This document shows positions 2,740 to 50,552 of a stretch of DNA of 64,000 bases, piece after piece. The translations under genes and the position numbers were made by a program. The DNA comes from Microvirga arsenatis (GTDB lineage: Bacteria; Pseudomonadota; Alphaproteobacteria; Rhizobiales; Beijerinckiaceae). The stretch lies in assembly GCF_009910705.1 (NCBI RefSeq), contig NZ_JAAAXJ010000001.1, positions 186,001 through 250,000 of the forward strand, read 5' to 3'. The first letter of the stretch is position 1. Each line of letters begins with the position of its first letter. Below the pieces are notes generated by a model that searched no databases, was not told where the DNA came from, and saw only the letters and a list, made by a program, of their open reading frames with translations.

Positions 2740-4617
2740 TCAGGCGCCGGCCTCTTCGATCTCGCCGCTGACCATCAGCCATTCCTCCTCGACCGAGGCC
2801 AGGGTCGCGGCCGCCTCGGCGCGCATGCGGGAGAGTTCGGCGGCCTTCGCCGGGTCCTTCTGGAAGGCGGTGCCGTCGGCGAGCGCCGCATCCACCTTGC
2901 CGATAACCTCGGTGAGCTTCGCCATCCGGGCCTCGAGCCCCTCCAGCTTCTTCCTGAGGGGCGCGAGGGCCGCGCGCCGTTCGGCGGCGGCGCGGCGCTC
3001 GTCCACCTTCGAGCCGGCGGGTGCCTGCGGCCTGTCGGAGCGCTTCCCCGGATCGAGCTCGCCGGAGAGCACGAGCTGGCGGTAATCGTCCATGTCGCCG
3101 TCGAAGGGCCTCACGCTGCCGTTGCCGACGATCCAGAGCCGGTCGGCGCAGGCTTCGATCAGGAAGCGGTCGTGGCTGACCAGGATCACGGCGCCGGTGT
3201 AGTCGTTGATCGCCTCCATCAGGGCCGTGCGGCTGTCGATGTCGAGGTGGTTGGTCGGCTCGTCGAGGATGAGCAGGTGAGGGCCGTTGAAGGCGGCAAG
3301 GCCCATGAGCAGGCGCGCCTTCTCGCCGCCGGAGAGGGCCGAGACCGGCGTGTCGGCCTTGGCGCCCGGAAAGCCGATCTGCGCCGTGCGGGCGCGGATT
3401 TTCGCGACCGGCGCGTCGGGCATGCGCTCGGCCACATGGTCGTAGGCGGTCGCCTTCGGGTTCAGCTCGTCGAGCTGATGCTGGGCGAAATAGGCCACGT
3501 CCATGCGCGTGGGCGTGCGCATCTCGCCCTTCATGGGCGCGAGCCTGCCGCCGATGAGCTTGCAGAAGGTGGACTTGCCGTTGCCGTTGGAGCCCAAGAG
3601 CGCGATGCGGTCGTCCGGCGAGATCGTGAGGTTGAGGCGGTCGAGCACGATGCGCTCGCCATAGCCCACGGCGCCGCCTTCGATGGTGATCAGCGGCGGC
3701 GCGGCCGGGCGCTCCGGCCCCGGCAGGTTGAAGGGCAGCACGTCGTCTTCCACGATGGTGGCGATGGGCTCGAGCTTTGCGAGCCGCTTGACGCGCGACT
3801 GCGCCTGCCGGGCTTTTGAGGCCTTGGCCTTGAAGCGATCCACGAAGGCCTGCAGGTGCTTGCGCTCGGCCTCCTGCTTGGCCGCCATCTTGGCGGTCAG
3901 TTCGCGCCTCTCCGCATATTGCCTGGCGAAGGAGGTGTAGCCGCCGCGATAGATCGTGAGCTTGCCCCTGTCGAGGTGCAGGATGTGGTTGACGCAGGTG
4001 TCGAGCAGCTCCCGGTCGTGGCTGATGATCAGCACCGTGTGCGGGTAGCGTCCGAGATAGTCGTAGAGCCAGAGCGTGCCTTCCAGATCGAGGTAGTTGG
4101 TCGGCTCGTCGAGGAGCAGCAGGTCGGGCTCGGTGAAGAGCACGGCGGCGAGCGCCACGCGCATGCGCCAGCCGCCGGAGAAGTCCGAACAGGGGCGGTT
4201 CTGCGCCTGCGCATCGAAGCCGAGGCCGTGGAGGATGGCAGCCGCGCGGGCGGGGGCCGAATGGGCGCCGATGTCGGTCAGCCGCGTCTCGATCTCGGCG
4301 CGGCGCAGGCCGTCGGCGGTTTCCGCCTCGGCGAGCAGGGCGGCGCGCTCCTTGTCGGCGGCGAGCACCACGTCGATGAGCCTCTCCGGCCCGCCCGGCG
4401 CCTCCTGGGCCACGGCCCCGACCTTCATGCCGCGGGGCAGGGTGACGGTGCCGCTCTCGGTGGAAAGCTCCCCCTGGATGATCCTGAACAGGGTGGTCTT
4501 GCCCGCGCCGTTGCGGCCGACGAGCCCCACCTTGGCGCCTGTCGGCAGGTTGAAGGAGGCGCGGTCGAGGATCAGCCGGTCGCCGATGCGGTAGGTCAGG
4601 TCGTTGACGTGGAGCAT
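2740..4617 (-). CDS. ABC-F family ATPase, YheS-like
   Basis: A 625-residue soluble protein with two ABC ATPase cassettes and no membrane segments, the ABC-F plan of ribosome-associated translation factors. Cassette 1: Walker A GRNGAGKTT near residue 35, signature SDFSGGW, Walker B LLLLDEPTNYLDL. Cassette 2: Walker A GSNGNGKST near 340, signature SALSGGEKARL, Walker B LLILDEPTNHLDI. The arginine/lysine-rich linker (RFKAKASKARQAQSRVKRL) and the phrase YFAQHQLDEL are typical of the YheS branch rather than EttA. A C-terminal coiled-coil extension (about residues 530-625) follows. The ATG at MLHVNDL is preceded by AAAAGGCGG. The Crp/Fnr gene is divergent, 121 bp away. Confidence 0.9.
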   Translation of the reverse strand: MLHVNDLTYRIGDRLILDRASFNLPTGAKVGLVGRNGAGKTTLFRIIQGELSTESGTVTLPRGMKVGAVAQEAPGGPERLIDVVLAADKERAALLAEAETADGLRRAEIETRLTDIGAHSAPARAAAILHGLGFDAQAQNRPCSDFSGGWRMRVALAAVLFTEPDLLLLDEPTNYLDLEGTLWLYDYLGRYPHTVLIISHDRELLDTCVNHILHLDRGKLTIYRGGYTSFARQYAERRELTAKMAAKQEAERKHLQAFVDRFKAKASKARQAQSRVKRLAKLEPIATIVEDDVLPFNLPGPERPAAPPLITIEGGAVGYGERIVLDRLNLTISPDDRIALLGSNGNGKSTFCKLIGGRLAPMKGEMRTPTRMDVAYFAQHQLDELNPKATAYDHVAERMPDAPVAKIRARTAQIGFPGAKADTPVSALSGGEKARLLMGLAAFNGPHLLILDEPTNHLDIDSRTALMEAINDYTGAVILVSHDRFLIEACADRLWIVGNGSVRPFDGDMDDYRQLVLSGELDPGKRSDRPQAPAGSKVDERRAAAERRAALAPLRKKLEGLEARMAKLTEVIGKVDAALADGTAFQKDPAKAAELSRMRAEAAATLASVEEEWLMVSGEIEEAGA

Positions 4618-5425: not shown

Positions 5426-6342
5426 CCTGCTTCCCTCGGCCGGGACAAAGGCCGTCCTTCGGTCATGGCCAGGGCGGTGGCGGAGAGCATCGCCGTCATG
5501 CCGAGGGCTTCGGGCCAGCCGAAGGCCTCGTTCGCAAAGGCGACGCCGACGGCGACCGCAACAACGGGGCTGACGAACGAGTAGAGCCCGGCCCGGAAGG
5601 CGCCCCAGTCGCGCACCAGCCAGAGATAGATCGAGAATCCGCCGAGCGAACCGCCGAGGACGAGGATGGCGAGGCCGAACGCCGCGCGCGGGTCCGCGAG
5701 CCCGGCGAAATAGGCGGGATCGTAGCCCTCCACCAGGAGCGACACGGGAATGAGGCCGAGCGCGCCGATGCTCGTCTCCCAGAAGGCAAGGGAGATCGGG
5801 TGCATCGTCTGCATCAGCGGCCGGCTGACCACGGCGCCCCAGGCATAGCTCAGGGTGGCCCCCGCCACGGCGGCGAGGCCGAGAAGGGCTCCCTCCTGCC
5901 CGCTGCCGGTGCGGCCTGAAAAGAGCATCACGAGGCCGAGTACGCCGAGCCCGATGGCACCGACCCGGCGCAGGGTGATCCGCTCCTGCCGGTAGAATGC
6001 GGCGACGAGGATCACGAAGATCGGCATGAGCGCAAGGTTGACGATGGAGGACAGGCCCGTCGGCGCCCTCGCCACGCCCCAGAAGAGAAGGCTGTAGCAG
6101 CCGGTGGTGATGAGAAGGGAGGCCACGATCACCCGGCCGGGCTGGTTCACCTTCAGCGGCAGGCCGCGCGCGAGGATGAAGGCGAGGTAGCAGAGCCCGG
6201 CGAGCAGGAACCGCATGGCCGCGAGAAAGATCGGCGGCACGGCCTCGGAGGCGATCTTCATGGGCAGCCAGGTGAGGCCCCAGATCAGGGCCATGAGGGC
6301 GAAGGCCGCAATCCTCCTCGTCTCGCTGCCCTGCCGCCGCAT
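5422..6342 (-). CDS. EamA/DMT-superfamily inner-membrane transporter
   Basis: A 306-residue membrane protein with about ten hydrophobic segments and two EamA repeats. The first begins FALMALIWGLTWLPMKIAS and the second AGATLSYAWGAVVSRPLM, which is the usual layout of drug/metabolite exporters of the RhaT/YdcZ/EamA class. The substrate cannot be told from sequence. The ATG at MRRQGSE has a GGGAGG ribosome site; longer in-frame starts upstream lack one and precede a non-hydrophobic, shadow-like stretch. It runs toward the Crp/Fnr gene and the two genes share 4 bp at their 3' ends. Confidence 0.85.
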   Translation of the reverse strand: MRRQGSETRRIAAFALMALIWGLTWLPMKIASEAVPPIFLAAMRFLLAGLCYLAFILARGLPLKVNQPGRVIVASLLITTGCYSLLFWGVARAPTGLSSIVNLALMPIFVILVAAFYRQERITLRRVGAIGLGVLGLVMLFSGRTGSGQEGALLGLAAVAGATLSYAWGAVVSRPLMQTMHPISLAFWETSIGALGLIPVSLLVEGYDPAYFAGLADPRAAFGLAILVLGGSLGGFSIYLWLVRDWGAFRAGLYSFVSPVVAVAVGVAFANEAFGWPEALGMTAMLSATALAMTEGRPLSRPREAG

Positions 6343-21729: not shown

Positions 21730-22179
21730 TTGACCACGCTCAAGGAATTCGAGGAAGCGCTGCGGGAGCAGGGGATGCACATGGCCCTCGCCATCCTGCA
21801 GAAACTTCGCGAGCGCGATCGCAGCAAGCGCTCGATCGCTCCCGCCCGCCGGATTGCCGGGCGCAAGATGACCCCGGATCTGGCCCGGCGCATCCTGGAA
21901 CTCCACGCCACCACGGAGATGACCCAGCAGGAGATCGCCTTCGAACTGGGCGTCAATCAGGGGCGGGTCAACGAGGTCATCAAGCGTGGCAAGTGGCTCG
22001 ACGACAACCCCGCGGCGCCCGAAGCCGTGGCGCGGGACAAGGCGAAGGCCCGCATGGGCGAGACGCGGCTTCGGAAGCGGGCGATGAGCAGGGAGGCTGG
22101 GGGCGCGGTGTCCGACAAGAGGCGCCCGGCGGCCGCGAAGCCGGGCAACCCGGCCCAGCTGATGCTCGGCGATCTCTAG
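21730..22179 (+). CDS. Small helix-turn-helix protein
   Basis: A 149-residue basic protein, read from a TTG with AAAGGAG upstream (an ATG at 21775 would shorten it by 15). The middle carries an apparent helix-turn-helix, DLARRILELHATTEMTQQEIA followed by FELGVNQGRVNEVIKRGKW, of the kind that reads DNA in resolvases and sigma region 4. The C-terminal 60 residues are Lys/Arg/Ala-rich and probably disordered. No partner domain is visible. Known homologues cannot be named; a DNA-binding role is inferred from the motif. Confidence 0.65.
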   Translation: MTTLKEFEEALREQGMHMALAILQKLRERDRSKRSIAPARRIAGRKMTPDLARRILELHATTEMTQQEIAFELGVNQGRVNEVIKRGKWLDDNPAAPEAVARDKAKARMGETRLRKRAMSREAGGAVSDKRRPAAAKPGNPAQLMLGDL

Positions 22180-22226
22180 CGGCTTGGGTCATCGGGTGCA
22201 GCCCCTTGGGCTGGCAGCCAGGTCAC

Positions 22227-22296
22227 AAGAAAGGCCGCGACCGTCCCTCGAGAGGATCTGTGGTCGCGGCCCCCGGCCCGTGATTGCCCCCACGGG
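22227..22296 (-). ncRNA. Candidate two-hairpin RNA with GGGGCAAU loop
   Basis: Read on the minus strand: hairpin 1 (CCCGTG/CACGGG, loop GGGGCAAT), 5 bases, then hairpin 2 (perfect 10-bp stem GGCCGCGACC/GGTCGCGGCC, 19-base loop), then TTTCTTG. Hairpin 2 plus the T tract resembles a Rho-independent terminator. No minus-strand gene ends just upstream; the nearest stops more than 300 bases away at 22600. The same architecture occurs on the minus strand at 54.6-54.7 kb. It may be the end of a small RNA or only a terminator; no promoter was recognised. Confidence 0.4.
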
Positions 22297-22372
22297 AAGC
22301 TCTGCCTTAGACTCAGAAAACGTGACCTGAATGAGGCGCTGGTGAGACCTGAAAATTTTTTAAGATTTTTTC

Positions 22373-22397
22373 GGAACCAACTCGGAGCACTGACGTT
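22373..22397 (+). promoter_or_regulatory. EcfG-type general stress promoter, GGAAC-N16-CGTT
   Basis: GGAAC (22373-22377) and CGTT (22394-22397) with exactly 16 bases between, an exact match to the consensus used by the alphaproteobacterial general stress sigma factor EcfG. A run of A and T (22351-22371) lies directly upstream and could act as an UP element. No coding sequence begins downstream before a strong terminator 45 bases further on, which points to a small-RNA transcript. Confidence 0.7.
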
Positions 22398-22402
22398 AAT
22401 AG

Positions 22403-22472
22403 GCATCTCCGGTCATTTTTGCCCCTACGGCCGGACACCTTAGAGCACCCTTTTGGGTGCTCTTTCTTTTTC
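22403..22472 (+). ncRNA. Candidate EcfG-dependent small RNA with C-rich loop (GsrN-like)
   Basis: A roughly 70-base transcript is predicted between the EcfG-type promoter and a strong terminator. The 5' hairpin pairs TCCGGTC (22408-22414) with GGCCGGA (22429-22435), seven pairs with one wobble, and exposes the 14-base loop ATTTTTGCCCCTAC. Six bases later comes the terminator stem. The plan of a 5' hairpin with an exposed C-rich loop under EcfG control resembles GsrN, the stress small RNA known from Caulobacter and predicted across Alphaproteobacteria. Homology is inferred from architecture, not from alignment. Confidence 0.6.
22442..22472 (+). terminator. Strong Rho-independent terminator
   Basis: Perfect 9-bp stem AGAGCACCC/GGGTGCTCT with a TTTT loop, followed by TTCTTTTTC. 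It ends the candidate small RNA. The opposite strand lacks a U tract on its 3' side, so it acts on the plus strand. Confidence 0.88.
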
Positions 22473-34167: not shown

Positions 34168-34193
34168 AACGCCCCTGCCCGCCGCTCCGTTCC
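34168..34193 (-). promoter_or_regulatory. EcfG-type promoter of the sensor kinase, GGAAC-N17-CGTT
   Basis: On the minus strand GGAAC (34193-34189) and CGTT (34171-34168) are 17 bases apart, within the accepted 16-17 spacing. Transcription would start near 34161, giving a leader of about 38 bases before the kinase ATG. This predicts that the kinase is itself a general-stress-response gene. Confidence 0.65.
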
Positions 34194-50161: not shown

Positions 50162-50273
50162 CTCAAGGGGCGAGAGTCTGGTGCGCTTCCACGGACGGAA
50201 CCGAACGACCGAGGGTCATTCGACTACGGTCACCGCCGGCACACCCCGTCCGACAGACCCGATAGAAGCAAAG

Positions 50274-50433
50274 GCTGACGGCAGGTCTCCTGGCTCGCGG
50301 GTCGATGCTTTTCGCCGCCTTCCCGGGATTGCATCCCAGTGGCATTTGGAGCGAAGGCTCGCCGCTTACAGTTGCGGGGGCAGCCGCGGTGTCTCACCGC
50401 ATTCCCTTTTCACCCCGTTGCCGGGGCACCGTC
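50274..50433 (-). promoter_or_regulatory. Cobalamin (adenosylcobalamin) riboswitch
   Basis: All the conserved blocks are present in order on the minus strand: GGTGAAAAGGGAA, GCGGTGAGACACCGCGGC, GCCCCCGCAACTGTAAGCGG, CCACTGGGATGCAATCCCGG, GGGAAGGCGG, and the B12 box GAGCCAGGAGACCTGCC at 50281-50296. It leads the hupE-DUF1636-cobW-cobN-cobGHIJ run, so adenosylcobalamin should repress metal uptake and corrin synthesis together. It does not face cobO, which is transcribed the other way. Confidence 0.95.
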
Positions 50434-50552
50434 GTCACCATGCTTATCTGGCCGGGAAGGATGTTTCAAGCCTGCGCCTCGGGCATGGCCGGCCTTGAAA
50501 TCCGGCCGGAGCCTGTTCATGGTGCGGCCCTTCCACAGGAAAGCAGGCCGGG

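Follow-up and report, generated by a model that had tools for sequence, protein, structure and literature searches.

The question raised by this locus is whether a short intergenic gene of Microvirga arsenatis, here called P1, is the counterpart in this genus of the Caulobacter stress RNA GsrN, as an earlier note had proposed, or one side of a different small RNA arrangement. The window is the whole stretch of 64,000 nucleotides that was analyzed, and the features discussed are collected in Table 1. The EcfG-type promoter GGAAC-N16-CGTT with an A/T tract upstream, followed by a 7-bp hairpin and a 9-bp terminator with a U tract, are present as the earlier note had read them, the promoter and tract in the letters and the two stems by folding. 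The predicted RNA from 22404 to 22472 (69 nt) folds at -27.6 kcal/mol with z = -6.7, and 0 of 200 shuffles fold as well. The terminator is also recovered by a consensus scan, which alone is no evidence, giving 1 site against 0.8 in shuffles. The window has 2 matches to GGAAC-N15-17-CGTT where 0.83 would be expected, and at least as many turn up in 19 of 100 shuffles, so that the promoter string alone is not significant and the weight of the case rests on conservation. The second of these matches, GGAAC-N17-CGTT at 34168-34193 on the minus strand, is about what chance would supply. Mechanical open reading frames overlap the P1 stretch on both strands; none was judged coding, by judgement rather than by a coding statistic.

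Table 1. Features of the P1/M1 locus (window positions) and of related genes of the source genome.
Feature	Position	Strand	Basis
A/T-rich tract 5' of the P1 promoter	22352..22371	+	sequence
P1 promoter, EcfG-type: GGAAC (-35) 22373-22377, N16, CGTT (-10) 22394-22397	22373..22397	+	exact match; conserved in orthologues
P1 small RNA (predicted; start expected at ~22403-22406)	22402..22471	+	model R1 match G000:C1:208402-208471, 101 bits
P1 5' hairpin, 7 pairs 22408-22414/22429-22435, loop AUUUUUGCCCCUAC at 22415-22428	22408..22435	+	fold
UUGCCCCUACGG, 12-nt M1-complementary stretch of P1	22419..22430	+	sequence match G000:C1:208419-208430; duplex calculation
P1 intrinsic terminator, 9-bp stem 22442-22450/22455-22463, then U tract UUCUUUUU	22442..22471	+	fold, consensus scan
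M1, predicted divergent small RNA	22228..22300	-	model R2 match G000:C1:208228-208300, 81.5 bits
M1 hairpin CCCGUG[GGGGCAAU]CACGGG	22277..22296	-	fold; compensatory and wobble changes in helix 1
CCGUGGGGGCAA, M1 stretch that can pair with the P1 loop region, 12 bp including one G-U	22284..22295	-	
Putative M1 terminator: GC stem (GGCCGCGACC / GGTCGCGGCC) with partial U tract	22224..22271	-	
Block conserved 5' of M1 (GCCTCAttcAGGTCACGTTTTC), which may be its promoter or operator	22316..22340	-	conserved alignment columns
P2, EcfG-type paralogue, loop AUUCUGCCCCCAC	L236 ~3165-3263 (G000:C1:515164-515262)	-	
Pg, EcfG-type C-loop sRNA gene directly behind phyR, loop UCCUCCCCGCAUUCCCC	L232 ~6080-6201 (G000:C17:18569-18701)	-	
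P0, second EcfG-type sRNA gene at the stress locus, ~2 kb beyond Pg	L232 7990-8094	-	

By DNA search, the P1 unit is found in 27 of 61 genomes, the source genome included, and these are 27 of the 37 Microvirga and 0 of the 24 others of the order. Of the 27 orthologues, 26 retain the strict promoter and the 27th (L026) has TGTT; the spacer sequences differ, and a tract similar to the A/T tract of P1 can be read by eye in most. A 26-row alignment shows conserved columns in the -35 and -10 elements, the 3' arm and the loop. The 5' hairpin is nearly invariant among orthologues, and paralogues keep its loop core with a variable stem. A scan across named genomes gave at least 80 stretches, sorted as 27 P1-like, 36 P2-like (defined by a CUGCCCC loop; L171 and L180 belong to other locus types) and 17 other. 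The 27 P1-like stretches among the matches listed are all from Microvirga, and one of them (L149) is a paralogue. Within the 17, L108, L142 and L154 turn out to be P2-like with AUCUGCCCC, which brings the P1-like and P2-like stretches together to 66 and the P2-like ones to 39, and the remaining 14 look like chance matches.

Model searches extend this picture to the family. R1 was built partly from the P1 locus, so the 101 bits of P1 itself are by construction; it has matches in 126 of 298 genomes overall. The R1 matches outside Microvirga were rejected as family members, since among the 11 viewed (L071-L081), L075-L080 lack the C-loop and match by way of the terminator. R3, a sequence model of P0, P1 and P2 including their promoters, matches 36 of the 298 genomes of the family sample, made up of 24 of 24 Microvirga and 12 of 274 others, and in the source genome it finds three full members (P1, P2 at C1:515195 and P0 at C17:20528) and a partial match on C18. 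Over genomes of the class, R3 matched 1 of 385, the source genome, in a first look with 13 candidates scored per genome listed. These model searches score only the best first-look candidates of each genome, so that absences are soft. Rfam, at both thresholds and on both strands of the locus, gives no family at gathering score.

P1 resembles GsrN and the GsrN-like EcfG sRNAs in having a GGAAC/CGTT sigma-T-type promoter, a small RNA, an exposed C-rich 5' loop and, as expected partners, G-rich RNAs; the GsrN loop has six tandem C and the P1 loop four (PMC5869019). Outside Caulobacteraceae, one criterion employed in that study was proximity to the phyR/nepR/ecfG locus (PMC5869019). A NepR search of the source genome gives six matches, four of them above the cut-off, and the region of the best match, on contig C17, encodes an ECF sigma factor, NepR and PhyR by Pfam. 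P1 is on contig C1 at 208 kb and hence not in proximity to the stress locus. The stress locus carries two EcfG-type promoters, each followed by a C-rich-loop hairpin and a terminator, which are Pg and P0. Pg stands behind phyR in three genomes of the family (the source, L117 and L309) with a nearly identical loop and an EcfG-type promoter. A DNA search for Pg finds 4 of 121 genomes of the order, being the source, that of L309 and two weak matches, and the stretches fetched around the weak matches contain no phyR motif. P0, found by DNA search in 21 of 61 genomes, all Microvirga, is convergent with the adjoining PRC-barrel gene, which has its own EcfG-type promoter.

The source genome has at least four EcfG-type C-loop genes (P1, P2, P0 and Pg), among which P1 resembles P0 and P2, a third copy; an EcfG-type promoter and a C-loop are insufficient to call any one of them the GsrN counterpart. 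From the interpretation in the earlier note we retain a short sRNA with an EcfG-type promoter and an exposed C-rich loop, a GsrN-like design for which conservation also speaks, and we drop the identification with GsrN, which is not supported when this genome has Pg and P0 at its phyR-nepR-ecfG locus. Pg is the likely positional GsrN counterpart of this family, and P1 is one of several EcfG-type C-loop sRNA genes, GsrN-like in design. One could still suppose that the true GsrN orthologue is P1, relocated from the stress locus, given its promoter and its C-rich 5' loop, and given that gsrN of C. crescentus is itself away from that locus (PMC5869019). We find this scarcely credible against Pg, placed directly behind phyR in three genomes with its near-identical C-rich loop and EcfG-type promoter, against P0, also at the stress locus of the source genome, and against the confinement of P1 to one genus. 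P1 also differs from the GsrN-like sRNAs in having a divergent complementary partner, the comparison being one of design and position.

That partner, M1, is a predicted second RNA on the minus strand beside P1, and was absent from the earlier note. Its loop GGGGCAA is in place at 26 of 27 P1 loci, the exception being L005, where the sequence diverges near a contig end. The named genomes have it at 25 of 27 P1-like loci, L114 being the same place as L005 and L115 being cut off 20 bases from the promoter. In an alignment of 24 M1-like sequences, which we abbreviate as M, 97.1% of cells are paired, against 33-41% in slid versions, and 4 of the 16 pairs of the helices are changed on both sides, a number that appears in 1 of 500 shuffles. 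Over the 24 sequences, there are 18 G-U cells, 1 A-C and 10 other mismatches; the ratio of 18 G-U to 1 A-C points to the minus strand as the strand of the M RNA. The fold of M1 alone is mildly better than shuffles (z = -2.1, with 9 of 200 as good). R2, a model built with the M1 locus included, finds M in 14 of the 298 genomes of the family sample, all of them Microvirga (14 of 24), leaving 10 of the 24 with no M match.

The ends of M1 are less well marked. A consensus scan found no sigma-70-like site as its promoter, and the conserved block upstream may be a promoter or an operator. The consensus scan did not pick up the putative terminator. A short U tract (UUUCUU) follows its stem in the window, and the corresponding stems of L017, L018, L021 and L024 run out into UACCCC or similar, so M1 may not terminate well. 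The upstream neighbor of M1, at window 21730-22179 on the plus strand, encodes a 149-aa protein with a sigma-70 region-4-like helix-turn-helix, and proteins like it, recognized by eye, lie near the locus in L104, L113 and L121.

The hairpins might be repetitive extragenic DNA elements or protein-binding sites instead of RNA genes, as they are multi-copy with an invariant core, reaching 16 R1 matches in one genome. We regard this as highly improbable, since promoter, hairpin and terminator come in a fixed order, the G-U pairs of M are tied to one strand, and the stems change with pairing kept.

The connection between M1 and P1 is complementarity. The 12-mer UUGCCCCUACGG has exactly 7 copies in the source genome and, together with one near match, these form three pairs 128-185 bp apart, in each of which the upstream member has, on the opposite strand, a G-rich-loop hairpin followed by a GC stem and a U-rich tail. 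The calculated M1:P1 duplex covers 12 bp, one of them a G-U, at -24.2 kcal/mol, and its GGGGCAA/UUGCCCC part lies within the loops, so the two have the complementary accessible stretches of an sRNA and anti-sRNA pair (12 nt, loop part included). With P2, M1 makes 12 Watson-Crick pairs at -28.8 kcal/mol; with P0 it is weaker, a 7-bp run at -23.0 kcal/mol. The other two M of the source genome make 12-14 Watson-Crick pairs with P1 and runs of only 6 with P2 and P0, and since they fit P2 poorly, M1 is the only one of the three that also reaches P2. As the M1 loop fits the loops of both P1 and P2, M1 is most likely an anti-sRNA for C-loop sRNAs.

In 48 stretches there are 49 M matches, 41 of which face a divergent P1-like (P) match on the other strand with 92-187 nt between, and 8 of which lack a P match in the 400 nt covered. 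The count leaves out duplicates in overlapping stretches (L199 is a duplicate), short reverse matches to the P1 terminator and, as weak, L204, L201 and L208 (13.5-13.6 bits), L205 (24.0) and L191 (21.8). In the 41 pairs, M with GGGGCAG is joined to P with CUGCCCC in 5 of 5 cases, and the other 36 M have a CUGCCCC partner in 2 (Fisher p 2.8e-5), counting L217 and L225, whose M loop is outside the expression, as not GGGGCAG. Uncompensated are thus 2 of the 7 CUGCCCC pairs among the 41 (L200 and L223). The mean duplex energy is -24.7 kcal/mol for cognate partners, -23.6 for permuted partners and -11.6 for shuffled P loops (the last over 39 unique pairs), and permutations are as good as the cognate duplexes in 11 of 20000, or 5 of 20000 on the 39 unique pairs. 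The p-values of loop co-variation are overstated because the sequences are related.

A further 39 CUGCCCC-type P loci, in stretches of up to 8 kb, were searched with R2, which found M in one (L171, E 2e-5) and none in 38. In L171, from Microvirga aerophila, M is at 5833-5903 on the minus strand and faces an EcfG-type P with a UUCUGCCCC loop; its own loop, GGGGCAGAA, is the form expected for a CUGCCCC partner, and so fits the rule that the two loops switch together. Since the six switched pairs are drawn from three genomes and roughly three locus types, the evidence they give is good without being overwhelming. In 38 of the 39 CUGCCCC-type matches, a few of them from other genera, the 12-mer with a perfect fit to M1 is present, and the exception is L171, with its own M.

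Our preferred reading, with a probability of roughly 0.57, is that P1 is an EcfG-driven C-loop sRNA and M1 is an anti-sRNA, or sponge, that restrains it. Under stress, EcfG would make P1 as a trans-acting RNA of ~66-70 nt, whose exposed C-rich loop AUUUUUGCCCCUAC would pair with G-rich RNA. M1 would be transcribed divergently from a different promoter in the same intergenic region, and in the cell its G-rich loop would start pairing at the P1 loop and spread to 12 bp. By acting as a decoy for P1, and for P2, M1 would create a threshold, the C-loop sRNAs being held down until the stress sigma factor has driven enough of their synthesis. Sequence, structure, conservation, the strand bias of M1, complementarity and loop co-variation are what was observed; that both RNAs are transcribed, that P1 depends on EcfG, that the duplex forms in the cell and which RNA controls the other are inferred from them. 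As to the G-rich ribosome sites that the earlier note proposed as targets, the loop-complement pattern TAGGGGCAAN{2,14}ATG beats its reversed control in most of 41 Microvirga genomes, some matches being the P and M loci themselves (5 of 6 in the source genome), and no conserved gene target was recognized among the matches listed.

It may be asked whether M1 does anything. P1 could be an ordinary EcfG-driven GsrN-like sRNA working on G-rich mRNA sites, with M1 a by-product, an old tandem hairpin copy that has no role in control. The design of P1, P2 and P0 matches GsrN-like sRNAs, the 38 of 39 CUGCCCC-type loci that have no M match in the fetched stretch presumably work alone, and on one DNA strand the cores of M and P form direct repeats. 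A useless copy would be hard to reconcile with M1 kept at 26 of 27 P1 loci, with compensatory changes and G-U substitutions that are minus-strand-specific, or with M loops that co-vary with the loops of their neighbors, and we consider the by-product account rather doubtful.

The direction of control is a separate matter, and M1 could equally be the regulated partner. Complementarity is symmetric, and the roles may be reversed, with a G-loop sRNA, M1, as the effector and P1 as a stress-induced antisense RNA that removes it; the 8 of 49 M that have no P neighbor indicate that M may have a job without P. P without M is the commoner state, however, with an R3 match in 24 of 24 sampled Microvirga genomes compared to M in 14 of 24, and this makes the full reversal unlikely. 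If the sponge reading of M1 is extended from one locus to the genus, Microvirga may possess a dispersed family of divergent sRNA/anti-sRNA pairs with co-evolving complementary loops, in which M1 serves the EcfG-driven C-loop sRNAs as a shared buffer (a loop G makes a wobble with P1 and belongs to a perfect 12-nt match to P2) and so gives the RNA arm of the general stress response its threshold. We offer this tentatively, at somewhat less than even odds.

The neighborhoods of the paralogous pairs are mixed. Origin from a mobile element or plasmid was considered and rejected, because the 10 neighbor proteins of paralogous pairs are varied and include no transposase or replication gene; they are RTX-repeat proteins at three loci, an ABC ATPase, a methyltransferase and others. 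The pairs in L197, L203 and L208, which are without an EcfG promoter, adjoin genes of RTX calcium-binding repeat proteins. P2 adjoins a gyrB-type gene in L126, from another Microvirga, and in L122 an rnr-like gene, identified by eye, comes after.

Several known systems resemble this one in part. SdsR and RyeA of enterobacteria are a stress-sigma-driven sRNA and an antisense partner from a different promoter, encoded by overlapping antisense genes. P1/M1 is like SdsR/RyeA in having a stress sigma factor on one side and another promoter opposite, and unlike it in that the genes are separate and divergent. The sbrA RNA of Listeria (RF01489), which is under sigma-B control, is like P1 (22403-22470) in carrying a terminator behind a 5' hairpin with a CCCCUA loop. 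P1 scores 17.6 bits as an sbrA member against a gathering score of 45, so it is at most a look-alike, and the likeness is probably convergent.

Antagonists of sRNAs have mostly been found singly, often through interactome experiments. Anti-sRNAs as such are already known, for example CJnc180 against CJnc190 in Campylobacter jejuni, where a trans-acting sRNA that works on a G-rich ribosome site is antagonized by an RNA of the same locus (PMC8687705). That likeness goes with a difference, as CJnc190/CJnc180 is a cis-encoded antisense pair (PMC8687705), and P1/M1 is divergent, matches between hairpin loops and is repeated at several loci, with antagonism here inferred. The model matches of P1 (22402-22471 plus) and M1 (22228-22300 minus) do not overlap, the RNA ends being predicted ones, which sets the pair apart from cis-antisense RNAs. 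A literature search, mostly of titles and abstracts, found no divergent non-overlapping pair with complementary loops recurring across the loci of one genus, and a search of titles and the beginnings of abstracts found no paper naming the P1 or M1 RNAs. Here the sequence, taken alone, points to a design of two genes with co-varying loops that recurs across loci and is linked at one of them to the stress sigma factor EcfG. Should this hold, buffering of a stress sRNA would become testable by simple deletions in a soil genus, with natural loop variants available for specificity tests.

Two other elements were seen in passing. L032 of contig C4 of the source genome has, at 1438-1526 on the minus strand, a hairpin with a UUUUGCCCCUACGG loop and a large structured terminator, with GGAAC-N16-CGTG upstream and, on the divergent side, 330 nt that contain no GGGGCAA. 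The window also contains a cobalamin riboswitch, scoring 146 bits, at 50263-50448 on the minus strand.
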